From Salinirubrum litoreum (GTDB lineage Archaea > Halobacteriota > Halobacteria > Halobacteriales > Haloferacaceae), in assembly GCF_020567425.1 (NCBI RefSeq), contig NZ_JAJCVJ010000004.1, forward strand, positions 1-64,000: a DNA stretch of 64,000 bases. Direction: 5' to 3'. Position numbers and translations under genes: made by a program. Below the pieces are notes generated by a model that was given only the letters and a program-made list of their open reading frames with translations, was not told where the DNA came from and did not search any database. Positions 2,384 to 41,339 of the stretch are shown one piece after another. Numbering within the stretch: the first letter of the stretch is position 1; each line of letters starts with the position of its first letter.

Positions 2384-3323
2384 CCTTCCTGTCGATCTGT
2401 TCGATCAGTTCCCGCGCAGTCACAGCGATCACCTCACAGCGATCAGTGACCGAGACATTCTCGTCGTGTGTCCACGCAGAGAGATACCATCTTGACCCAA
2501 CCGTATCCAGACCTGAGTGCCGTCCAACGATGGCTGCCGTCGCCTCTGCATCGAGTTCGAAGGCGGCTGCCTGCTGTGCGTCTACGGGAACCTCGGGGTG
2601 GAGTCGGGCGTGTGCGAGTTCGTGTAAGAACGTCCGAGCGAGATCCGCAGTATTCTCACGATTTCGGAGATCAATTCGCTCCTCTGTCGTCCCATAGGCA
2701 CCCCATGCCGAGCCGTGCGGCCACTCCGACTCGTCAATGATCTGAACCGGGATGTCCCAGTCATCGGCGATCTGGTGGAGGGCTTCCACCAGCCAGTCCG
2801 CGTTACCGTGAGCCTCTCGCCGCAGTTCGGGCAGTTGCTCGCCCTCGGTCTGGGAGATATCGAACACCGCAACAGAGCGAAAGCCGACGACTTTCTGTGG
2901 CCACTCTTCAGTCGGGGCCTGCTCATCGCAGTCGCCGTGACCCTGGACTGAGTCATCACAGGTGGGACACACCCGCGCTCGAATGGGTGCACGGATCCAG
3001 ATCGCCTGCTCGCCAGACTGGACCTGTCGATCGAGGTCTTGCCAGGCTCTGTAGCCGGCGACGTGAGTCGCCTCTGGGCACTGTCTTCGGATCAGAATCG
3101 AGTTGCGAAACGAGTAATCGTGAAACTGTGCCTGCACGTCGAGCCATTCGGCGAACTGCTCGCTTGCCGTTGCTTCCTCAACGTCCTGTTCGAGTTCCTC
3201 GATCCATCGGTTGATCGTCTCTCGCAGGAGGTCGTCTCTCCGTTCCCGATCTCGGCAGTGCTCCCGGAACTCGTCCGTGTCACTCGGGACACCGACCTGT
3301 TTCGCCGACTTCTCTGTTGGCAT
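2373..3323 (-). CDS. ArdC-type antirestriction protein (ssDNA-binding domain plus M78 peptidase)
   Basis: 316 residues. The N-terminal half matches the ArdC N-terminal single-strand DNA-binding domain: a helical start, WLDVQAQFHDYSFRNSILI and AGYRAWQDLDRQVQSGEQAI. A small insertion carries CPTC and a further Cys/His pair, a possible extra zinc site. The C-terminal part has HELAHARLH at about residues 236-244, the HExxH motif of ImmA/IrrE (M78) peptidases. ArdC-type proteins protect incoming plasmid DNA from restriction. A strong hairpin lies four bases upstream of the ATG. It is close to the TFB and secretion genes and on the same strand. Confidence 0.85.
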   Translation of the reverse strand: MPTEKSAKQVGVPSDTDEFREHCRDRERRDDLLRETINRWIEELEQDVEEATASEQFAEWLDVQAQFHDYSFRNSILIRRQCPEATHVAGYRAWQDLDRQVQSGEQAIWIRAPIRARVCPTCDDSVQGHGDCDEQAPTEEWPQKVVGFRSVAVFDISQTEGEQLPELRREAHGNADWLVEALHQIADDWDIPVQIIDESEWPHGSAWGAYGTTEERIDLRNRENTADLARTFLHELAHARLHPEVPVDAQQAAAFELDAEATAAIVGRHSGLDTVGSRWYLSAWTHDENVSVTDRCEVIAVTARELIEQIDRKAND

Positions 3324-3327
3324 CTAT

Positions 3328-3351
3328 TGCGCCTCCGCCCGCCGAGGCGCA
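3328..3351 (-). promoter_or_regulatory. 8-bp-stem hairpin just upstream of the ArdC gene
   Basis: TGCGCCTC (3328-3335) and GAGGCGCA (3344-3351) form a perfect inverted repeat with an eight-base GC-rich loop, ending four bases before the ATG. In mRNA it would hide the start region. In single-stranded transferred DNA it would form a stable hairpin. Its role is unknown. Confidence 0.5.
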
Positions 3352-3368
3352 TAGAAAATCTAGGGTGC

Positions 3369-4301
3369 TCACTCAGAGCCGACGAGGTCACGCAAGTCGT
3401 AGTACCGCTTCCGTAACGTCACTACCGTCACACCTGCTGCGGCTGCAATATCCGACTGCGTGGCATTCTGCAGCCGCTCGGTACCCGCAAGGTACAACGC
3501 AGCACCCGCCACACCGGCTGGGTTCTTGCCCGTCGCGATGCCCGAATCCAGTGCGAGTGAGACGAGTTCTGACGCTCTGGACCGCACCACAGGAGAGGCA
3601 TCCATCTCACCCAGCAGTCGCGACAGGTACAGGTGCGGACTCACTGGCTCGACCGCGAGACCGAGTTCGACGTTCAACACGCCGTAGCTGAACCGCACGT
3701 CGTGTTCGGTGACCGATGAACCAGCTGCGATCTCGTCGGTCGTTCGGAGGACGTGCTGGCGGCGACACGCAGCATACACCGCACCGGCGACCATCCCGTC
3801 GATGGTTCGGCCCTGCAGGAGGTTTTCGCGGTAGGCACGGCGGTACAGCACACTCGCCTCTTCGTGGACTGCCCTCGGGAGTTCGAGAGCGGAGACGAGC
3901 CGTGCCATCTCAGAGAGTGCCCGGAGCAGGTTCTGTTCGCGTTTCGAGGTCGTGACTGCTCGCCGGTCGTGCGTCCGCATCCGGGCGATCCGCCGCCGCT
4001 TACGTGAGGAGAGTGGATTACCGTGGGCGTCACCACGCCAGCCGATCTGACTCGACACGCCGCGGTCGAACATCGTCGGTGTCGTCGGTGCACCCACACG
4101 CGAACGAGTCCTCGTCTCTTCAGCGTCGAACGCACGCCACTCTGCACCCCGGTCAAGATAGTCTTCGGCGATGACGAGTCCGCACTGGGTACACGTCGTC
4201 TCGCCACGCAGGGTCGCCGGTGGGCTACCACACTCCGGGCAGTCGTCGCTCAGGTCGTCCGTCTCGCCGCATCGCTCAGGTGTCGGTAGTCTCGTGGTCA
4301 T
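3369..4301 (-). CDS. tfb: Transcription initiation factor B (TFB) encoded on the element
   Basis: 310 residues from ATG 4301. A zinc ribbon near the N-terminus (CPECG, then CTQCG) is followed by a B-reader/linker region (RGAEWRAFD) and two cyclin folds; the first contains RTIDGMVAGAVYAACRR and the second GKNPAGVAGAALYLAG. TFB bridges TBP and RNA polymerase in archaea. Haloarchaea have many TFB paralogues, and one on a mobile element could redirect transcription to the element's own promoters. The in-frame 53-codon upstream extension is rejected because it runs through the paired-hairpin element and is rich in Arg and Pro. Confidence 0.93.
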   Translation of the reverse strand: MTTRLPTPERCGETDDLSDDCPECGSPPATLRGETTCTQCGLVIAEDYLDRGAEWRAFDAEETRTRSRVGAPTTPTMFDRGVSSQIGWRGDAHGNPLSSRKRRRIARMRTHDRRAVTTSKREQNLLRALSEMARLVSALELPRAVHEEASVLYRRAYRENLLQGRTIDGMVAGAVYAACRRQHVLRTTDEIAAGSSVTEHDVRFSYGVLNVELGLAVEPVSPHLYLSRLLGEMDASPVVRSRASELVSLALDSGIATGKNPAGVAGAALYLAGTERLQNATQSDIAAAAGVTVVTLRKRYYDLRDLVGSE

Positions 4302-4320
4302 TGGTCTGCACGGGACCTCA

Positions 4321-4351
4321 CGTGGGGAGCCCCGCACCCGCAGGGGGCGAA
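4321..4351 (-). promoter_or_regulatory. Paired hairpin upstream of the TFB gene
   Basis: Minus-strand order: TTCGCCCCC, TGC loop, GGG, TGC, then GGGG-CT-CCCC and ACG. It matches the element before the SWIM gene at 1689-1722 in sequence and layout. It ends 19 bases upstream of the TFB start. Confidence 0.5.
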
Positions 4352-4486
4352 CAAACAGGCGGACGGTGCGTCTCGCAGAACTCGAGATGAATACTCGTGA
4401 CTGAAGCGCAACCGGGAGCGCTGGAATGACCACAGGGGGTGGACGAGGTGGATTTTTCAATCACCCACACAAGATGCCGAACAACG

Positions 4487-4945
4487 ATGCCAGAGTCGGA
4501 GTCGATTACACCGTATCTCGAAGAGAACGGCCCGACCCCACGCTCGGAGTTACCCGTTCGCTTAGAGAGCTATCATCGAGAACAGGGTGTCTGGTTGTTC
4601 CGTCTCACTAGTGGTGTTGGCGACACTCAACCAGCAGGCGGCCAGAGCGTCAAAATCGCGTATCTTCCAGAGCACAAAAAGGAGGACGTCTGCCGCTGCT
4701 TCTTCGAGGCGAATCCTGAGTTCGTCGACGCACAGACGTACAGGTCCGCCAGCAGACAACTGTCGAATTACGGACGCGAGTGGATCGATGCCTGTCGTCC
4801 CGTCATCGCCGAGTTCTTCGAGTCGCCATCAGCGTCCGACGAGTCGGGGTTCGACACAGGAGAAACGGAAACCTGCTCGTTCTGTGGCGAACCTGTCCCT
4901 AAAGGTGGACTACCCGCACACCTCCAGGAGTGTTCAGAGCGGTAG
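4487..4945 (+). CDS. Hypothetical protein with C-terminal C2HC-type zinc finger
   Basis: 152 residues from ATG 4487, divergent from the TFB gene. The middle (SVKIAYLPEHKKEDVCRCFFEAN) is not recognised. The C-terminus CSFCGEPVPKGGLPAHLQEC has the spacing of a BED/C2HC-like zinc knuckle. Start chosen because the upstream extension falls in the divergent promoter. The 3' end overlaps the VirB4 gene end by 12 bases, convergently. Possibly a DNA-binding accessory protein of the element. Confidence 0.7.
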   Translation: MPESESITPYLEENGPTPRSELPVRLESYHREQGVWLFRLTSGVGDTQPAGGQSVKIAYLPEHKKEDVCRCFFEANPEFVDAQTYRSASRQLSNYGREWIDACRPVIAEFFESPSASDESGFDTGETETCSFCGEPVPKGGLPAHLQECSER

Positions 4946-7900
4946 GTGCTCACTCTGTCCGTCTGGGTGCGTCGCCACATCGCCCACCTGTGGATCGAAC
5001 TCGATCACCTTCCACTCCCCAGCCAGTAACCGCACTTCGATCCCGTACCACTCACCATCGACACCAACCAGCGCCTCACCGTACCCACGCACTGGATCAC
5101 CGGGCAGTGCTTCCTGGACGAATCGCATCTGCGCAGGATTCAGCCCGAACTCCTCTGCCCACTGTGCGTCCATCCCGTCTAGTCGATGGAACTGCTTCAC
5201 CGCACACTGATCTAAGATCGCCTCCGCCTCGGGACGGTCGAAGAACTCATCGACGGTCTGCGTCACCAACCGAATCGACAGATCGTGGTGGCGATGATGC
5301 CGAAACACCGTCTCCAGAAAGGACAACGACGCTGCGTCCTTCAGAACGTATCGCGCTTCGTCGATCACGAACACGACTTCTCGGTCGGTCTCCTTCGCCA
5401 GCTCGTACACCTGCGAGATGAGCAGTTGCATCAGGAGGCCGGTGTCCTCGCCGATGGAGCCCTCCTGCTGGCCCAAGTCGAGATACAGCACCGACTCCTC
5501 ACGCAGATCAAACGCGGTCGGCTCGCCGATGTTCGCGTACCGCTCGCCCTCGTCGAACACTCGCAGTTGGTAGACGAGCGTCTCGGCGTGTGTGACCAGC
5601 TGTTCTGCTTCTGCAGCAACTGCACGGGCGGTGAACGCCTCGGGGTCGTCGATCATGTCCGAGAGGACGTCGAGAAGGTCACGCAGGGTGGGACTCTCCG
5701 CACCGTGCGTCTCGATGTCTTCGGTGATGCCTGCCCGCTTGTACGTCTCGATCAGCGCGAGTTCGAGTGTCACACGACGCTCGCCGAGCGTCACACCCCG
5801 CTGGGCGAAGAAGTTCGTCAAGAAGGACAAGACGTCGTTCAGCTTCTCGGCGAACGGACTGGCGTCTGCACCCATCGTCCGCTGGACGCTCGCTGGGACC
5901 GCCCGAATGTCGAGCGGGTTCACACCGAGTGTCCCACCGACCGTCACGCGCTGGCCGCCCAGTGCCTCGGCGACGCTCGCCCAGTTTCCGAGCGGCTCCA
6001 AGATCACACCGAGGCGATCCTCGTCTGCCAATAGTGTCCGCAAGAAGGCCTGTTTCGCGGCCACAGATTTACCCGACCCGGGATCACCCACCCGGAACGT
6101 GGCATACCCGTTCGCCCGGGCGAACGGATCGACGACAACCGGCGTACCTGTCCGACTCTCCGTCCCGAGTTCGATTCCCTCGGATTCGAGCATCGTCGGC
6201 CGGTGCGGAGACGAGAGCAGTGCACCGACTGCTCCGCCGAGTGCGACGACCGACCGGTCCGCGACGTCCGGACCAACCGGTGCAGCCGACTGGACGGCGC
6301 GATCCTGTGCACAGATGGCCGTCTTCGCCGTCAACCCAGCAGGCTGTTCACGCAGCCGTTGGCGCACCCGTCGCACCGACTCCCTGAGTGTCTCTCTGTC
6401 GTCTGCCCGGACGGTGACGTAGATCGACTGGTGGAACACACGCGTCCCACCCTCGACTGCGGCGTACGTCTGGGCGGCCCGCTGACTCCGTTCTGCGAGA
6501 TACCCACCGCGGACCGTCTCTTCGAGACGGGCGTCTGCTTCGAGGTCGTCCGCTTGCCGCTGGAGTTCTCGCCGAGCGCGTTCGTGATCGATCGGCTCCC
6601 AATTAATGGTGAGTGCGTACGACACGTCCGAGAGTTCGAACAGGCCCGACAGCGAACCGTCTTTCAGCAGATCTGGATAGCCCTCGATAGTGAGCGTCTG
6701 TGTCCACGTCTCGTCGAGCCGTGCTGTGCGCGTGCCCCACTCGATCCCTGCAGGCGCGATGTCGTCAGCGTGTGACTCGCCGAGTTCCGTGAGGTGCTCG
6801 TATTCGGCCTCTGCGGGCGTCCGGTCCTCGTCCGCCTCCACGGCCGCCCCGCCATCCCCCCGTGCGACAGCGCGAGCCGTGCGGCGTTCTATCGTCCCGT
6901 CTGGCGCAGCCGGTGTCTGAGCTGCTCGTGAGGCTCGACCGACCGCCGTGCGGGTTCGGACAGACCGGTCTGCAGGCTCACCACCCCAGAACTCGACACA
7001 CAGTTCGTAGAGTTCGACAGTGGAGAGTCGACGGGCACGCCAGCCGGGGATGTGGCCGAACAGTTCGGTCTGGAGGGTCTCGACTCTCGCATCGAGTTTC
7101 TCTGCCATCCGCTCACGGCGTTCGAGCGGGGAGAGCGGTTCCCGGCCACGGAGGACCGTCCGGGCGAGCACACCGAGGAGTGGCACCCCTGCGAGTCGCT
7201 CTGCTGGTGTGCCCTCCTGTGCGTCTCGCTCGTACACCTCGACTGGTGAGACAGACACCCCGAGGAAGTACTGTGGGTGCGTACTCTGTGCGAGTGCATC
7301 CGATCGTTCCTGGCGATATTCGTCTGTGAGGACTCGTCGTGTTCGGGCTGCGGTGAACGCCCCACTCGACGTCCCCGGATCGGCCGACCCGACCACCGTC
7401 TCGACCGGGAACGGCCGCGTTCGGACGTGCAGTTTCAGTGGGAACTCCGCCTCGGCGTTCACGAACTCGGTGATCGTCGACTCTACACTCGCCCAGTCGG
7501 GGTGCAGCGCAAACCCCATCGGTGTGGGTTCGATCTCGACCATGGCCTCGAGTGTCCCGTCTGTGCGTTCGACCGCTGCGAGACCGGGCCACGCACGGCC
7601 GATGTTCGTCACCTCCTGTGTCGATTCTGCGGGAACGAAGGGGACACGGCCGGTCCCACGCTCGGGCTCGTCTGCGAGCGAGAGCTTCGGTCGGCGCAGG
7701 TAGTACCGACCGAGCGTCCTGACCCACGCACCGGCAGTGAGGTGCGGTGGTGCGGCGAAAACGAGGGCAATCGAGATGAACAGCCCGACGAGTACTGCAG
7801 GGATGACGAGTCCCCGTGCACCGAAGATGCTCACGAGGAACAGGCCGGCCACCGGCCCGACAGCCAGCACCTGTGCGTCACCACTGCGAAGCCCGAAGAT

Positions 7901-15716: not shown

Positions 15717-15903
15717 CAGCCTTCCACCGGAGGTATCGTATACGTGCTTCCTCCTTGCAACTGTGTGATCCAGACAGCAGGTGTGCTGAGTAGCACACAA
15801 ACCACTCGCTAGCTTCCTGTCGAACAGTACCGAGACCCTCTCTACACGACCGTCTCTCGTTTCTGGCGATTCCTGTGACAGAGCCCCTGACAGGTGCAGA
15901 TAC

Positions 15904-15914
15904 ACCTATATCAC
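15904..15914 (+). promoter_or_regulatory. TATA-like box for the VirD4 gene
   Basis: ACCTATATCAC centred about 30 bases before GTG 15939. That is the spacing for a haloarchaeal leaderless transcript, and it decides the GTG start. An in-frame ATG at 15894 lies upstream of this box and would not be transcribed from it. Confidence 0.5.
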
Positions 15915-15938
15915 TTTCATCCAGACCCACACGCTATC

Positions 15939-18900
15939 GTGTCAACAACCACCACGCCACGCTACCGGATCCGTCCGAGCACAGATCCGCTCGATCCACA
16001 CACAGCAGCGAGTGGGATCACACGGCTTCACAGCGCTCTCCTGAACGCGGAGACGCCACTGGAGTGCCGATTGACGAGCGGTGCTGGCAAGGATGCAGAG
16101 ATTTCCTATACGGTTTCTGCGGGCACAGATATCCCACTGGATCGACTCTTCGGCCGACTCCTTCCGACGCGATACGAGGTCACACCAGACGAACCGACAG
16201 AGACGGCCCTGCAACCAGCCGTCTCACACCGTCTCGTCGGCGGGTATCTCCAGGGAATGGGTGAGCGGTCACAGGACTGGCAGACAGCACTCACGCCGTA
16301 TGCAGAGTTCACGAGTAACCGTGAGCGACGTGAGACGACACAGAATACAGTCACAGATCTCAGGGTTCCACTCTCTGATGTCTGTGAGGCACTCACGAGT
16401 TCGCCCTATCCTGCGATCGTCCAGCTACTGGTCACGCCGAAACCCGACTGGCGGCGGAGTGCAGAAGAGCGGATTACCCGCCTCATCGAACTGCGTGATA
16501 CGCTTCCCCAGCGGGCGTTCGAGGCGACCATCGGTCCGTTCCTCGGTGACCCCTACGAAGAACTCCCTCAGTCAGATGCTCGTACGCCGTCGTATCGCCG
16601 TACCGAGAACGACGCATCCCAGAAAACACAGACACGGCGTGTCCATCCAGACATTCAAGAACGGATCGACGCCATCGAAGCGCGTGACACGCGGGTCTCC
16701 TTCGACGTCGAGTGCAGAGTCGTGGTGTTCCTCCCAGATGAAGAAGCGACCACAGACCCTGATGCCGATGGTGATGCCGATCCTCGAGCCGATTCCGACG
16801 ACGAGGCGACACCAGAAGCGACACACTCACCAGACACCACAGACCCCGACGACGTAAACACAGACCCGGCCGCGGCGACCACAGCAGGCCTCGCACTCTG
16901 TGAAGAGGTGGTGAAGTCCTTCTCGCCTGTCGAGACGAAGTACACGTGGGTCGAGTGCAAACACGTCGGTGACGGCACAGACACGCCCGGGTCGAAGGCT
17001 GCCGGGACGAAACTCCTCCAGGCGATACACGAGCGGACACCGTACCCGTTCCGGCGATGGTTCCACCGCTTCATCCCTAGACTCGGGGCACGGCCCTACC
17101 GGTCGTTCGTCGTCGACCGGCGTGAACTCGGCTCGTTTCTCTTACTCGATGGTGATGCAGTTTCCCCCGCAGTCCATCGGGCACTGAACATCATCGACAG
17201 CGACCGGACTGCAGTGACCCTTCCGCCGGAACGTGTGTTAGAGCGCTATTGGACGGAGGGCTTCCCCCTCGGAACGTGTGACTCACAGCAGACCAGCAGG
17301 CACACAGAGCCGATCAGCGTGCCACCGGCACTGCAGCGAGAACACATGGCGATTCTGGGATCGACTGGCTCTGGGAAGACGACGTCTGGGGAGACGGGGA
17401 TTCTCGCGAATCACGTCGCGACCGACGGTGCTGACATCGTCATCGCCCCGAAAGGCGATGGCTTCACGCGGCAACTGCTCATGCTCCACTACGCGAAACA
17501 CGGCGACCTCGATAACGTCCTGTACTTCGACTGTGCAGAGGTCGTCCCCGCGATCGGCTTCTTCGACATTCGCTCGGATCTCGAAGCGGGCGTCACACGG
17601 GAGACGGCGATCAACGACCGGATCGCCCACTACCTCGAGATCGTCGACCTGCTGAACACAAAGGAGAACACGGAGCCAGCACAGTGGGCATCGACTATCA
17701 TCCAGGCGCTCATCAAGACTGGCTTCGATCCGGTCCACGGCGCTGAAGCGTTCAGTCACCGCGAGATGCAGGCGCTGTTGCGACAACTCGAGTTAGACGC
17801 GCCACATCCACCGGTCTCGACGATGTGGGCGACAGACACGTATGCAGACCTCTACTCGCTCAAGCCCGAGATCTTCCAGGGTGTCAAAGACGGGGCGAAG
17901 ACGCAGATACGCCAACCAATCGCGGATTCGCGTGTCGCACACATATTCAATCACGTGAGTGAGCCAGATGGGCCACACCTCGATCTGGATGCACTACTGA
18001 ACCAGGACGTCCTCGTGATTCTGGATATGGGCCGGCTGAACGAGCAGTCGAGTCGTGACCTCACGACCGTCCTCCTCTCGATGCTGTGGGCAGCCCTCCA
18101 GCGACGCGTCGAGCGGAGTCGGTATCAAGAAGAGACACAGCCGCTCGTCAACATCTACATCGAAGAGGCGTCGTTTCTCGCAGATTCCAAACTCCTCGAC
18201 CAACTCCTCTCGAAGGGCCGCAGCTTCGACTGTTCGCTCTTGCTGTCGATGCAGTTCGCGAGCCAGGCCAAAGGAAAGAGTTCCAAAACGCTCGATGAGA
18301 TACTGTCGAACGTCAAGACGTTTCTCGTGGGGCCGATCGCGAAATCGGACGATATCGCGACTGTGCTCGAGACCGACGAGATGGAGCAAAAACAGATCGA
18401 GACCCGACTCGCGAGTCTCGAAAACGGTGGGTGGGTGCTCAAACTTCCCTCAGCGTTCGGACAGTCGCGTCCGCGACCGTTCTTCGTCGAGTCGCTCCCG
18501 CTCCCCGTTGGCCACCCGGAGGGAGACGCACCGCCCACCCCGGCGATGCGTGACCGCTTCGAGCAGGCGTTCGCTGCACTCGATGAACGCACACGCCGCA
18601 CGGTTGGTGTCGAGATCGCCGAAGCAGAGCAGGCCACGGGACCGTCTCGATCGGCTCACGAGGCGCAGACGAGCGACTCGACCGAGACTGACGCGACCGA
18701 GACTGACGCCACAGACAGCGACTCCGAGGCAGCATCGCGGGCTGCCCCCATCGACAGCCTCCTGCCGTACACGAAGCGGCTCCCCACGTGTGTCACCTAC
18801 GACAGGGACGCACACGCAGTCGTCTGCACGACGTGTTCGAATCGCTACGATCCGACTGACGAAGGCCTCTCCCGGGCGATCGACTGCTGTCACGCACTGG

Positions 18901-19706
18901 CGGAGGTCGATCCCGACGACGTCCCGATCACGACGGTCCACCTCAAGCGAAGTCCCGAGGAACTCGACGCGAGTGCGTGGTCACGCCAGCAGTTGCTCTT
19001 CTTGCAGGTCGTCTACAGCGCCTCTCAGTTCCGGTATGGGCCGCCAGGGTACGACCTCCTCACAGACTCGATGCTGCGCCTCCAGGAGTACGTCGGCATC
19101 GAACACGACGACGTCGAGGCACTCCTCGAGGCTGATCTCCTCAGACAGGACACCGATCATCCCCACCGCCTCTACACGGTCACCGCTGACGGTCGTCACG
19201 AGATCGGGGAAGGGCACAGACAGGGACTCGATTTCGGCGATGGCAAGGGCGACCTCGGTGAGTCCACCCAGCACATCCTCGGCGTCGAGGTTGCGAGGCG
19301 GTGGCTTGAACAGACGTACGTCGCAGACGCGGAGTCTGCTGTCACCAGTGTCGAGACCTACTATGAGATCGAGCAGGATCGCCTCGATCTCGTCGGACTC
19401 GACGACGAGAGTGTGATCAGGATCACCGTCGAGGTCGAACGGGTGAACAACGACCTCGCTGAAGCAGCTCCCTCGGATTACGACAAGATGGCCGCGTGTG
19501 ACCCAGATGAGGCGATCTGGGTCGTCATGTCCACGCGTGACGCCTACCGGGTCGTCCACGCACTGAACCACCCCGCAGATGGTGAGCCTCGGATTACGAA
19601 GTCCTACGCGAAGACGACTCCGCCACAGAACTACTCTATCGACGCTCCGGGGATGTCTGCGGTGTTCCCACTCGAATCGCTCCGGAGAGAACTCACCGAT
19701 GAATAG
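15939..19706 (+). CDS. VirD4/TraG-type DNA-transfer coupling ATPase
   Basis: 1255 residues from GTG 15939. An N-terminal domain of about 250 residues is followed by a low-complexity Asp/Thr/Pro linker (about residues 266-312). Walker A (ILGSTGSGKTTSGE) is near 474, Walker B-like VLVILDMGRLNEQ near 690, and NIYIEEASFLAD near 740, the TraG/HerA pattern. A Cys-rich spot (CTTCSNRYD) near 960 may bind zinc. The C-terminal about 300 residues look like a separate helical/nuclease-like domain (IEQDRLDLVGLDDESVI). It probably brings DNA to the secretion channel. The last about 43 codons recur, decayed, at 26588-26705. Confidence 0.85.
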   Translation: MSTTTTPRYRIRPSTDPLDPHTAASGITRLHSALLNAETPLECRLTSGAGKDAEISYTVSAGTDIPLDRLFGRLLPTRYEVTPDEPTETALQPAVSHRLVGGYLQGMGERSQDWQTALTPYAEFTSNRERRETTQNTVTDLRVPLSDVCEALTSSPYPAIVQLLVTPKPDWRRSAEERITRLIELRDTLPQRAFEATIGPFLGDPYEELPQSDARTPSYRRTENDASQKTQTRRVHPDIQERIDAIEARDTRVSFDVECRVVVFLPDEEATTDPDADGDADPRADSDDEATPEATHSPDTTDPDDVNTDPAAATTAGLALCEEVVKSFSPVETKYTWVECKHVGDGTDTPGSKAAGTKLLQAIHERTPYPFRRWFHRFIPRLGARPYRSFVVDRRELGSFLLLDGDAVSPAVHRALNIIDSDRTAVTLPPERVLERYWTEGFPLGTCDSQQTSRHTEPISVPPALQREHMAILGSTGSGKTTSGETGILANHVATDGADIVIAPKGDGFTRQLLMLHYAKHGDLDNVLYFDCAEVVPAIGFFDIRSDLEAGVTRETAINDRIAHYLEIVDLLNTKENTEPAQWASTIIQALIKTGFDPVHGAEAFSHREMQALLRQLELDAPHPPVSTMWATDTYADLYSLKPEIFQGVKDGAKTQIRQPIADSRVAHIFNHVSEPDGPHLDLDALLNQDVLVILDMGRLNEQSSRDLTTVLLSMLWAALQRRVERSRYQEETQPLVNIYIEEASFLADSKLLDQLLSKGRSFDCSLLLSMQFASQAKGKSSKTLDEILSNVKTFLVGPIAKSDDIATVLETDEMEQKQIETRLASLENGGWVLKLPSAFGQSRPRPFFVESLPLPVGHPEGDAPPTPAMRDRFEQAFAALDERTRRTVGVEIAEAEQATGPSRSAHEAQTSDSTETDATETDATDSDSEAASRAAPIDSLLPYTKRLPTCVTYDRDAHAVVCTTCSNRYDPTDEGLSRAIDCCHALAEVDPDDVPITTVHLKRSPEELDASAWSRQQLLFLQVVYSASQFRYGPPGYDLLTDSMLRLQEYVGIEHDDVEALLEADLLRQDTDHPHRLYTVTADGRHEIGEGHRQGLDFGDGKGDLGESTQHILGVEVARRWLEQTYVADAESAVTSVETYYEIEQDRLDLVGLDDESVIRITVEVERVNNDLAEAAPSDYDKMAACDPDEAIWVVMSTRDAYRVVHALNHPADGEPRITKSYAKTTPPQNYSIDAPGMSAVFPLESLRRELTDE

Positions 19707-20251
19707 CTTCGATCTGTCGCTCTCAATGGACCGGTGTTGTCCGTGATTTCGATATGTTCCAACATCGTCAGCAAGGATGATCACGGTGTCTACGGGGACG
19801 AGAGCACCGTTGAACGATTCTCCGCTCGGTGAGCATCGTCTGAGCAGTCCGAAAGAAGCGGGGTGTATGCGGGTTCGATGGCGATGATTGGCCGAGGTGA
19901 GGCGGTGTTTGGGGCTCCCAGCGGTGGAGAGTGACTGAACGCGTATTACCCGAATTCGGACATCTGGGGGCGTATACCTCCTGAATGAGCGATCGGACGT
20001 TCGACGAACAGCTGTGACATATATTTCTGCTTTCTGGGAAATCGAGTAGCATGAAATCTTGAGCATCGGTTTCCGTCTATCGATCACATCTAGTGCTCAT
20101 ACAGGTATGAAGACTGGACGATCTGCGCGTGACCGAATATTGAGGACTGCTAGTACCCTGCGGAACGCCTGCTCACAACCGAATTAGATTCCTCACTACC
20201 TGCGGGTTCGGATTCTCTGTCTTCGTTTTCTTGATCAGCAGATTCTCTGTC

Positions 20252-20340
20252 TCACACACCGCTTCTTTCGGACTCCTCGGCCGATGATGGACTGCCGCTG
20301 ATCGTTCAATACGGTCTCTCGAGGAGACTACGACGCGGAT
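20252..20340 (+). other. Highly conserved non-coding block with long inverted repeat
   Basis: About 90 bases nearly identical to 27250-27340, while surrounding repeat sequence has drifted much more. CTCCTCG (20273-20279) and CGAGGAG (20320-20326) can pair around a 40-base loop. It could be a structured RNA, a transfer origin or a recombination site. No reading frame explains the conservation. Confidence 0.4.
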
Positions 20341-20530
20341 GACCGATATTCCGATGATGGGATTCTCCGACTTGGACGACACACCTGTCCGCAAGATGCA
20401 CTCCATCAGGTGATACAGTATCTGGGGTCGCGAGTCAGGGCTCTGGAACGTGAATCACGTCCAGGAGGCGTACGACCCGGCATTTCTCGATCGGTTCGAG
20501 GTGGCAGTCGAGGAGGCGACCTCAGCGTGA
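20339..20530 (+). pseudogene. Small conserved ORF with in-frame TGA (left copy)
   Basis: A 64-codon frame starts MTDIPMMGFSDLDDTPVRKM and ends DRFEVAVEEATSA. Codon 25 is TGA where the right copy has TGG (Trp). Both copies keep the frame on both sides of this point (GLWNVNHV, YDPAFLDR), so a real small protein existed. It is broken here by a nonsense change. The function is unknown. Confidence 0.6.
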
Positions 20531-26705: not shown

Positions 26706-27350
26706 CTCTGGGCCGTCGGTCGCAGTGGACAGGGTATGCACGTGTTCTCGGATTTTCCATCACCGTCAGCGAGGGCGATCACGCTGTCTACGGAGACGGG
26801 GGCACGTTTGAAGGGTTCTCCGAGCGGTGAGCATCGCCTGGATCATCCGAAAGGGTGGGTGTACTCGGGGCTGACGGCGACGAGTGCCCGAGGTGAGCCG
26901 GTGCGTTTGGCTTCCCCTGGTGGAGAGTGAGTGATAGCGTATCATCCGAATTCTGGTATCTGGAGGCGTCTCGATGCGGATCGAGAGATCGACTGTTCGA
27001 CGAAGGGACGCGATGTATACTGATGACTTCTGACAGATCGAGTAGCACGAAATCTCGAGCATCGGTTTCCGTCTATCGATTGCATCTGATGCTCACACCG
27101 GTCTGAAGACTGGAATCCCGGCGCGTACGGTATTATTGACAACTGCTAGTGCCCCCACGAGGCGCCTGCTCGTGGCCGAAGTAGATTCTTCTCTCCCTGC
27201 GCCCCGGATTCTCTCTTTCTTCTTTGCTCGAGCAGCAGATTCCCTCGTCACACACACCGCTTCTTTCGGACTCCTCGGACGATGATGGACTGCCGCTGAT
27301 CGTTCAATACGGTCTCTCGAGGAGCCTACAACGCGGATGACTGGGATTTC

Positions 27351-27358
27351 GATGATGG
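27351..27358. repeat. Target site duplication, left copy
   Basis: GATGATGG directly before the element; the same eight bases follow it at 28219-28226. The left repeat copy has GATGATGG once, at the matching place, with no insert. Confidence 0.85.
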
Positions 27359-28218
27359 GGCTCTGTTGAAACCCTCAAGTGCTGATAGGACCGGGGTGCG
27401 AGATACAGAGGGTGTATTCAGCACGTCGAATCCGTTTATTTCAGGCACGAATTTCAGAACTATCTGTTAGGAAGTTGGTGCAAGTCGGTCACGAATGAGG
27501 GGTACGTACGAGCCGATCGATACAGTCCGCGGATCGTTCGGATTCAGAGGGAGTACGGTGACACGGGTTTCCGAATCCGTGAATCGGTGTCACCCAGTTC
27601 CTCCTCAAACCAATTTGGATGAAAACTGTCGGAGTACTTGGGTGTACGCAACATTCGTTCAGTATGGGCGATACGCAGAAACAGGGTATGGGCGATACGC
27701 AGAATCGTCCGTTCAACGAGATGCTCGACGCGATCGGCCACATTCAGCGTCGCAAACTGCTTCTCGCGTTACTGACCCACAACCCACAGGACGACGAACC
27801 GGTCGCCATTGTCGAGAACGAATCGGCAGACGAGGAGTTCACACGGCTCGTGGGAATGCAACACGTTCATCTCCCGAAACTGGAGGATTACGGGTTCATC
27901 AGCTGGAATCGTGACGCCAACGAAGTCTCGAAAGGCCCGAACTTCGAGGAGATCCGCCCGCTGCTCGAACTGCTCCGCGGCCACGAGGACGACCTCCCCG
28001 ACGGCTGGCTGTAGCACCCCACCTCGACCGAGACGCCACAGACTACCGGCTGAATCACGGCTCTGGGTGTGAAACCAACCAGCAACTGGTGCTGAATACA
28101 GCTTCTGTATCTATCGCTCTGAGCCACCACCAGATGACGACCGGTCAGTGACCGATACGCGCCCTGTATTCAGCACGGTTCTTGGAATCTATCACCGATT
28201 GAGGATTTCAACAGAGCC
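27359..28218 (+). mobile_element. IS6-like non-autonomous element with passenger gene
   Basis: 860 bases bounded by GGCTCTGTTGAAACCCTCAA at the left and its inverse (one mismatch in 20) at the right, flanked by the 8-bp direct duplication GATGATGG (27351-27358 and 28219-28226). Ends and 8-bp duplication fit IS6-family transposition. No DDE transposase is encoded. The inside holds a 116-codon winged-helix gene. GTATTCAGCACG occurs twice in direct orientation near the ends. The uninterrupted site is visible in the left repeat copy at 20353. Confidence 0.85.
27664..28014 (+). CDS. Winged-helix protein (DUF7344-like) carried by the IS6-like element
   Basis: 116 residues from ATG 27664, or 108 from ATG 27688; the first 24 bases are a tandem duplication (ATGGGCGATACGCAGAA twice), so either start gives MGDTQ. 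FNEMLDAIGHIQRRKLLLALLTHNP and a later helix HLPKLEDYGFISWNRD form the winged helix common in haloarchaeal DUF7344 proteins. The C-terminus ends LRGHEDDLPDGWL. It lies alone between the element's ends and may regulate nearby genes or travel as passenger cargo. Confidence 0.75.
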   Translation: MGDTQKQGMGDTQNRPFNEMLDAIGHIQRRKLLLALLTHNPQDDEPVAIVENESADEEFTRLVGMQHVHLPKLEDYGFISWNRDANEVSKGPNFEEIRPLLELLRGHEDDLPDGWL

Positions 28219-28396
28219 GATGATGGGACTCTCCGACTTGGACGGCACACCTGTCCGCAAGATGCACTCCATCAGGTGGTGCTGTATCCGGGGTCGCGAG
28301 ACAGGGCTGTGGAACGTGAACCACGTCGATGAGACGTACGACCCGGCGTTTCTCGATCGGCTCCAGGCGGCTGCCCACGATGCGACGACGGTCTGA
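28219..28396 (+). pseudogene. Small conserved ORF, right copy, cut off from its start by the IS6-like element
   Basis: From ATG 28220: MMGLSDLDGTPVRKMHSIRW, then GLWNVNHVDETYDPAFLDRL, 58 residues to 28396. The original start (ATG 27337, MTGISMMG) is on the other side of the element. Codons are intact here, including the Trp that is a stop in the left copy, so a 58-residue product could still be made from the inner ATG. The end of the frame marks the end of detectable repeat homology. Confidence 0.55.
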
Positions 28397-37445: not shown

Positions 37446-37892
37446 TGCTGATCGGCTCCTGAACCGTGGTCGGCTTCGCGTCGGACGGCTGACCGAACCG
37501 ACTGCTGTGACAGCGCGATGCCACCGACGGCGGGCGCTGAAGACACCCACAGGTTGGGACTGCCTCACATGAACATTGGGGTGGGACGGGAGACCCCGTC
37601 TCCCCGCACTCGCCGAGATGCTCGAGCGGGCTCTGTGATGACTCGCGTCGTCGTCACGCTCGCTCCCGTCGTGGTCACCCTCGCTCCAGTCGTCGTCACG
37701 CTCGCTCCAGTCGTCGTCACGCTCGCTCCCGTCGCTCCTCTTCGGTGACGGCACCGACCGGGTGGCGGCCGGGTCGGTCCGGGACTGGTCGGCCGACGCC
37801 CACCGACCGACGAGGAGTGGGTCGCACCCGCTGTCGACGCTCGGCGACGCATCGACAGCAGATGTATCCCGTGTCGGGACCACTGTCACGGC
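37446..37892. other. Gene-free stretch with tandem 21-bp repeats
   Basis: No supported gene. Four copies of a 21-base unit (CGTCGTCACGCTCGCTCCCGT and near variants) run from 37649 to 37732. The rest is GC-rich spacer. The promoter of the acetyltransferase gene should be near 37860. Confidence 0.7.
37649..37732 (+). repeat. Four tandem 21-bp repeats
   Basis: Units start at 37649, 37670, 37691 and 37712 and differ at one to three bases. The unit length keeps a frame open that would read VVVTLAP repeatedly, but there is no sign of a real gene. Confidence 0.85.
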
Positions 37893-40319: not shown

Positions 40320-41339
40320 ATGTCATCACCACACACCGACCCGACACTCACGCGGCGGACGCTACTGCGCGGTGCCACCGGTGCGACGGCCGCGAGTCTC
40401 GCCGCGACCGCCGCGACGCCAGTCGCCGGACAGGAGGACAGTGAACCGAACTACGGCGGCTGGTTCGACACCGTGTCGAACTACGACGGCACCGTCGACA
40501 AGCGCGGCCAGTCCGAGGTCACGATCACGGTCGGCGCGGAGGGGAACAACGGGAACTACGCCTTCGGGCCGGCCGCAGTCAGGGTCGACCCCGGTACCAC
40601 GGTCGTCTGGGAGTGGTCCGGGAAGGGCAACGCGCACAACGTCGTCGCCGAGGACGGCTCCTTCGAGAGCGAACTGAGCACCGAGGCCGGCCACACCTAC
40701 GAGCAGACGTTCGAGGAGACGGGCCTCGTCAAGTACGCCTGCCTCCCGCACAAGGCGATGGGGATGAAGGGCGCAGTCGTCGTCGGTGACCCCGGCCAGA
40801 TCGGTGGGAGCGGCGGCGGTCAGTCCGAGCAGTCGACCGGACCGGAGTACGGCGGCTGGTTCGAGAACGTCGGCAACTTCGACGGGACGGCCGACAGGAC
40901 CGGCGAGTCGGAGATCACGATCACGGTCGGCGCGGAGGGGAACAACGGCACCTACGCGTTCGACCCGCCGGCGGTCCGCGTCGATCCGGGGACGACGGTC
41001 GTCTGGGAGTGGTCCGGGAAGGGCAACGCGCACAACGTCGTCGCCGAGGACGGCTCCTTCGAGAGCGAGTTGACCACCGACGCGGGCCACACCTTCGAGC
41101 AGACGTTCGAGGCGACGGGTGTCTACAAGTACGCCTGCGTCCCTCACGAGATGATGGGGATGAAGGGCGTAGTCGTGGTCGGTGGACGCGGCTCCGGGGG
41201 CGGCGCCGGCGAGTCGTCCGGCTACGACTTCGAGGACCTGTTCGCGCTCGGCAGTGGCCTCGGACTCGTCGGTGCGCTGTTCGCCACGTTCGCGCTCGGC
41301 TCTCGAAACAGTGTCGGCGGTCCCGAGGACCACTCGTAG
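40320..41339 (+). CDS. Double-domain halocyanin with C-terminal anchor
   Basis: 339 residues. Tat signal (TRRTLLRGATGATAASLAATA), then two halocyanin (blue copper) domains, each with His in GNAHNVV and the Cys/His/Met set YACLPHKAMGM or YACVPHEMMGM. Then a Gly/Ser linker and one transmembrane helix (LGLVGALFATFALG). Halocyanins carry electrons at the outer membrane face. It follows the copper oxidase by 21 bases and probably feeds it. The two domains share long identical DNA stretches, offset 396 bases. Confidence 0.93.
   Translation: MSSPHTDPTLTRRTLLRGATGATAASLAATAATPVAGQEDSEPNYGGWFDTVSNYDGTVDKRGQSEVTITVGAEGNNGNYAFGPAAVRVDPGTTVVWEWSGKGNAHNVVAEDGSFESELSTEAGHTYEQTFEETGLVKYACLPHKAMGMKGAVVVGDPGQIGGSGGGQSEQSTGPEYGGWFENVGNFDGTADRTGESEITITVGAEGNNGTYAFDPPAVRVDPGTTVVWEWSGKGNAHNVVAEDGSFESELTTDAGHTFEQTFEATGVYKYACVPHEMMGMKGVVVVGGRGSGGGAGESSGYDFEDLFALGSGLGLVGALFATFALGSRNSVGGPEDHS

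Follow-up and report, generated by a model that had tools for sequence, protein, structure and literature searches.

The window, i.e. the whole stretch of 64,000 nucleotides analysed here, lies on a 179-kb contig (C4; NZ_JAJCVJ010000004.1, positions 1 to 64,000) of the 4.06-Mb genome of the haloarchaeon Salinirubrum litoreum, and harbours a transposed unit of 860 bp (27359-28218) in which the only gene encodes a DUF7344 protein and no transposase open reading frame (ORF) is present. The unit is bounded by 20-bp inverted repeats with a single mismatch at position 14, namely GGCTCTGTTGAAACCCTCAA on the left (27359-27378, forward strand) and GGCTCTGTTGAAATCCTCAA on the right (28199-28218, reverse strand), the 30-bp terminal arms being 87% complementary. 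At both borders the 8-bp direct repeat GATGATGG is found in exact form (27351-27358 and 28219-28226). In a paralogous block ca. 7 kb upstream the same repeat occurs once (20353-20360) without the 860-bp unit, the flanks matching on the left (27247-27364 and 20249-20366, 92% identical) and on the right (28217-28386 and 20351-20520, 88% identical). This single copy is the empty target site and, together with the duplication, it demonstrates that the unit inserted as a whole. An initial annotation of this DNA had described a transposed unit without a transposase and with a DUF7344-like gene as its sole content, which is upheld, although its range of 27351-28226 takes in both target duplications in addition to the unit itself.

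The paralogous sequences belong to a degenerate direct repeat, the copies of which lie 7 kb apart and are 74-92% identical (19579-20520 and 26579-27364/28217-28386). The block begins in the C-terminal end of a 1270-amino-acid ATPase-like ORF (15894-19706), and one of its copies houses the unit.

Terminal sequences and transposase affiliation

Inward of the tip lies a subterminal motif, GTGCTGAATACA, and the combination of tip, spacer and motif was searched with spacers of 10-39 bp permitted. Among the 90 matches listed from 392 genomes of the order, the spacer measured 23 bp in 66, 18 bp in 21 and 22 bp in three, with a comparable distribution across the 38 matches in genome_contigs (25, 10 and three, respectively). 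The exact pattern was present in 61 of the 392 order genomes, the reversed-pattern control giving 0, and all 37 matches from a scan of 84,980 species were haloarchaeal, as judged by record title. Ends with an 18-bp spacer are here termed L and those with a 23-bp spacer R. The window element carries an L end on its left, where the 18-bp spacer leads to a subterminal palindrome, GTGCGAGATACAG-AGG-GTGTATTCAGCACG (27396-27425, forward strand), with 3 of 12 motif positions mismatched and the palindromic second half intact, an arrangement shared with decayed copies. On its right is an R end, where GTGCTGAATACA, read from the right tip, follows a 23-bp spacer (28165-28177, reverse strand). An extra internal copy of the motif, GTGCTGAATACAG, is located at 28089-28101 (forward strand).

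The initial annotation had named the element IS6-like and proposed a search for an IS6 transposase with matching ends. Genes of the IS6 type (PF13610) were present in 72 of 117 haloarchaeal genomes searched, but in none of 30 haloarchaeal IS6 loci was the transposase placed between GGCTCTGTTGAAA tips. Ends determined de novo, with a duplication of at most one mismatch, were obtained for seven of these loci and read GGCACTGTCTAGTT or GGTACTGTCTAGTC. No PF13610 transposase occurs inside the element, and the host genome gave 0 matches. IS6 as the source of the ends was rejected, the 30 loci having shown other ends or none.

Matching ends are instead found around transposases of the IS5 family. 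A 2011-bp unit of Halovenus aranensis (L120) has exact tips at both ends and an exact duplication, and its transposase scores 215 bits against NF033579, an IS5-family model with a cut-off of 140. Homologues of this type were detected in 196 of 243 order genomes, some plasmid copies being annotated as IS5-like ISHla2 and ISHxa2. Of 30 such loci collected, 14 showed matching tips flanked by an 8-bp duplication in exact form, one more had a duplication with one mismatch, and the remaining 15 lacked either a recognisable second end or a duplication; seven further IS5 units have matching tips (L246, L250, L253, L254, L258, L262 and L267). The 8-bp duplication occurs in several families, IS6 included, and is not diagnostic in itself. 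ISH1 of Halobacterium is a member of the IS5 family. An 8-bp duplication is tabulated for it (PMC10264941). Since IS5 units carry the tips along with an 8-bp duplication and none of the 30 IS6 loci has these tips around its transposase, the ends are of IS5 type. The window element is thus a derivative of an ISHla2/ISHxa2-like IS5 element and, having only the DUF7344 gene inside, not an insertion sequence (IS) itself.

Units bounded by the same ends

When tips lying 80-6000 bp apart were paired across all collected loci, 278 distinct end pairs resulted. An 8-bp duplication flanked 64 of them if one mismatch was allowed, and in 52 of these it was exact; with right flanks permuted in a set of 273 pairs, the numbers expected were 0.46 for exact duplications and 0.72 when one mismatch was tolerated. 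The 64 units divide into 36 without and 28 with an IS5 transposase, counts which include nested or overlapping units (two in L106, two in L116 and three in L220) and one cassette twice (the SBF cassette of L081 and L218). Most loci were fetched for their end resemblance or pattern, the second end being free, so that end-type frequencies are not population estimates. Among the matches listed in an all-against-all comparison, ca. 50-75 bp are common at each end and the interiors are mostly unrelated, the exceptions being the nested units, the repeated SBF cassette and a repeated unit with PHO4 and transposase genes.

The interiors hold a broad range of genes. From the 36 transposase-less units, 30 chosen ORFs were scanned, six that were small or of duplicate type being left out, and 14 of the 30 scored above the Pfam cut-off: SBF, DUF2061, HNH, GYD, glyoxalase, Usp, acyl-CoA dehydrogenase with HTH_10, a formate/nitrite transporter with TrkA_C, BAT/HTH_10 with DUF7344, DUF6498 and DUF7534. 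Transposase-bearing units also carry cargo, with 7 of 18 ORFs above the cut-off (maltose-type acetyltransferase, RDD twice, PHO4, polyketide cyclase, periplasmic binding protein and DUF389). The initial annotation had suggested that such an element could spread transcription control; the cargo of cassettes other than that of the window is mostly non-regulatory, and its orientation relative to the L to R direction, judged by eye, is mixed.

Within one of the nested loci, L116, a 125-bp non-coding unit (1654-1778) with an exact duplication, GACCAAGA, lies inside a 2.4-kb pair containing acyl-CoA dehydrogenase and HTH_10 genes. In Halopiger xanaduensis (L246; NC_015658.1:3111-8938) a 2490-bp unit (2458-4947) that encloses internal tips and is flanked by the exact duplication CACCGTCT contains the ISHxa2 transposase along with DUF6498-like and RDD genes, which would correspond to stacked units moving together.

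Units of this kind recur at different sites in different genomes. The SBF-transporter cassette is 98.4% identical over 1249 bp between members of two archaeal families (L081 and L218; genomes G325 and G043), the identity ending within ca. 12 bases of the tips and the duplications differing (GTTCATGT and GTACATCC). The PHO4 and transposase unit is inserted at differing positions in two genomes that share a genus (L222, 3982-6528; L223, 1975-4107), and 414 bp of the transposase present in L222 are missing from L223, a plausible and even likely stage in the conversion of a transposase-bearing unit into a transposase-less one. Neither the end pattern nor relatives of the DUF7344 gene were found in viral_contigs, and no end matches were found in phages.

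The two types of end are combined in a regular manner. Of the 36 transposase-less units, 21 pair one L with one R end at exact spacing and two do so with a spacer off by one base; L/L or R/R pairs number 0 among these 23 in which both ends are readable. The assignment of end types tolerates 4 mismatches in 12 positions, and the other 13 units, with one end not assigned, have no bearing on the rule. This statistic does not distinguish a constraint imposed by the enzyme from inheritance of the end pair from a common ancestor.

The DUF7344 cargo

The cargo gene of the window element (27664-28014, forward strand) encodes 116 amino acids from the ATG at 27664, or 131 from that at 27619. A 19-bp tandem duplication, GTATGGGCGATACGCAGAA, with a spacing of 24 (27662-27704) gives rise to a repeated MGDTQ at the start of the gene. 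The protein submitted to the family and structure tools comprised 115 amino acids (27667-28011), beginning one codon past the ATG at 27664, and barely reaches the curated cut-off of the Pfam DUF7344 profile (PF24035; 27.8 bits against 27.8), a profile that gives E <= 0.01 for each of the 22 relatives in the alignment and has 22 matches in the host genome. The winged-helix nature proposed in the initial annotation is weakly supported, the best profile match in the PDB being the ArsR-type HlyU with an E-value of 0.035; a single-sequence AlphaFold2 model has a mean pLDDT (predicted local distance difference test) of 42.9, too low for use. Relative to its closest homologue (in genome G285, 72% identical) the gene shows 0.157 nonsynonymous substitutions per nonsynonymous site (dN) and 1.11 synonymous substitutions per synonymous site (dS). 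It has therefore been under purifying selection, the ratio averaging the whole branch between the two genes, with selection since insertion a separate question.

The initial annotation would have been contradicted by a gene that is part of the target DNA and absent from other copies of the element; the gene does recur in other copies. A decayed 837-bp cassette on host contig C5 encodes a protein 38% identical to that of the window and retains 6 of 8 positions of its duplication, and a decayed 749-bp cassette in a second genome (G149) encodes one 61% identical, both with the end order and gene orientation of the window cassette. In addition, an intact 1519-bp cassette in G233 holds a distant DUF7344 gene beside a BAT/HTH_10 gene. 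An end pair in G082 (L130; C3; 2139-3013) encloses 875 bp around a DUF7344 gene, adjoins an IS6 transposase and is without a target duplication. Amongst the nearest 30 DUF7344 loci, only the window copy and that of G149 lie between detectable ends (0 of 30 in a reversed-sequence control), no cassette being detectable around the G285 gene; DUF7344 genes are thus mostly ordinary genes and not cargo.

Elsewhere in the window, a 300-nucleotide tandem duplication (40445-40744 and 40841-41140) is 85% identical, and a 21-bp tandem repeat array of about six units occupies 37621-37746.

Mobilisation, related systems and significance

Taken from its sequence, the 860-bp unit is very probably a non-autonomous mobile insertion cassette, with a cargo gene between the L and R ends of an IS5-family element (NF033579; ISHla2/ISHxa2-like), and would be moved in trans. 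An IS5 transposase supplied in trans would bind the GGCTCTGTTGAAAYCCTCA tips, and perhaps also the subterminal GTGCTGAATACA motif, subsequently excising the unit and inserting it elsewhere with an 8-bp duplication. The order in transposase-bearing relatives is transposase-side end (P), transposase, cargo and far end (R or another type), and that in cassettes is L, cargo and R. We infer that the IS5 transposase moves the cassettes and reads the L and R motifs, a manner of cargo acquisition being part of the same inferred scheme; recognition of L ends by this enzyme is suggested by the shared tips and duplication length.

The host genome contains intact units on three contigs, i.e. the 860-bp DUF7344 unit on C4, one of 483 bp on C2 (GCTCAGTC) and one of 522 bp on C5 (GATAGATT), and the tip pattern gives 11 matches in it against 0 for the reversed pattern. 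The C5 unit (L271, 998-1519; G000 C5:33968-34489) is flanked by the duplication GATAGATT, contains a 104-amino-acid ORF and has one end of the other IS5 far-end type, with a tip ending in TAT.

Four points weigh against the proposed mobilisation by IS5. Mobility is read from sequence, neither excision nor transposition having been observed; the exact window cassette is present in one full-length copy, other copies of the same layout being decayed; no NF033579/IS5_2 and no IS6 transposase is present in the host genome, which is 99.9% complete; and an L-type end was found on none of the 28 transposase-bearing units. With intact units and no NF033579 transposase in the host, the mobiliser would have been lost, or have come and gone with another replicon. 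In Haloquadratum, some mobile miniature inverted-repeat transposable elements (MITEs) are likewise described without a functional transposase in the genome (PMC3119063).

The last of these points, together with the consistent pairing of L with R in 23 of 23 readable cassettes (21 at exact spacing and two off by one), favours a different mobiliser, namely a third, unseen autonomous element, perhaps of another IS5 branch, which possesses true L and R ends and serves the cassettes, while ISHla2-like units merely share their tips and R end. We regard this as unlikely, though deserving of consideration. No such autonomous element is among the loci collected, and R ends, which occur at one end of 8 of the 28 transposase-bearing units, are common to a branch of the same IS5 transposase (ca. 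68% identical), in which they form the end distal to the transposase. Furthermore, L120, L222 and L223 are each bounded by an R end and a transposase-side end, the unit as a whole being flanked by an exact duplication.

Less probable still is an ordinary decayed IS5 element which lost its transposase and enclosed a host gene by accident, the cargo having no function. Decayed copies do exist and the transposase-deletion intermediate has been seen in L223, but the cargo is intact and drawn from diverse families (14 of 30 ORFs above the Pfam cut-off), the DUF7344 cargo bears the mark of purifying selection, one cassette is found in two archaeal families and transposase-bearing units carry cargo too. 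That the unit is a MITE-like member of the IS6 family with a regulator as its passenger is hardly credible: the 8-bp duplication and a length within the IS6 range (PMC7986276) would fit, but the tips surround the transposase in 0 of 30 IS6 loci, the seven sets of de novo IS6 ends read otherwise, IS5 units bear the tips exactly and the host is without a PF13610 gene. The designation MITE is inapplicable to a unit of 860 bp with a selected gene, MITEs spanning about 50-500 bp (PMC10969869) and being without coding capacity.

As a cassette probably moved in trans by an IS5 transposase, the window element has several known counterparts. Mobile insertion cassettes (MICs) carry passenger genes, and the window element resembles them in having IS ends, a passenger gene and no transposase. 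Integrons are mainly a bacterial system. Pack-TYPE elements of plants hold captured host genes between terminal repeats and move in trans, whereas the cargo of the present family is whole, apparently selected and archaeal. MICs and transporter IS (tIS) are named kinds of element (PMC3129680). MIC231 of Bacillus cereus is tied to IS231/IS4 (papers cited in PMC2266710), unlike the window family, which belongs to IS5 and haloarchaea and is distinguished by dozens of unrelated cargos, the L/R spacer rule and nested units. tIS are copies of an IS that carry passenger genes having no part in transposition (PMC3129680, PMC7986276), a description that fits the transposase-bearing relatives, e.g. L160, L170, L222, L246 and L250, but not the window element, which is without a transposase; for IS6, one passenger-carrying member, ISDsp3, is listed (PMC7986276). 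ISH2-type MITEs of Halobacterium and Haloquadratum are also haloarchaeal and transposase-free and can hold an ORF, ISH2 being moved in trans by ISH8 (PMC3119063, PMC10264941). ISH2, however, possesses a single short ORF specific to its family, its termini are related to those of ISH8 and its duplications are mostly of 10 bp; the present family has IS5 ends, duplicates 8 bp and carries cargo that is exchangeable. ISHla2 and ISHxa2 share the tips and the 8-bp duplication and are the likely transposase source, differing in being autonomous and in their transposase-side end. A transposon passenger gene is mentioned for Halorubrum lacusprofundi (PMC10544981).

The mode of working is that of known mobile insertion cassettes, the new aspects being how wide a range of cargo is carried, the pairing of L with R ends and the occurrence in archaea. 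No description of the IS5 cassette family was found in titles and opening lines of abstracts from the open literature, outside which lie most subscription journals and ISfinder, so that a prior description may exist; in the passages searched, the papers on the genomes of Haloferax volcanii and Natrialba magadii do not mention it.

More tentatively, and with the balance of probability tilted somewhat against it, haloarchaea may have a general system of gene capture and exchange, in which any gene between an L end with an 18-bp spacer and an R end with a 23-bp spacer, paired in a way that calls to mind the V(D)J 12/23 rule, would be moved across replicons and families by cargo-carrying transposases, as a counterpart in role of integron cassettes or Pack-TYPE elements. 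Widespread IS5 ends that shuttle single, whole genes, such as those for transporters, stress proteins and regulators, would give the extensive exchange of genes among haloarchaea a concrete route open to testing, and the L/R spacer rule offers a direct handle on end recognition by the transposase. Many of the small genes annotated as hypothetical on the replicons of haloarchaea may be cargo of this mobile kind, which annotators could find by its ends.
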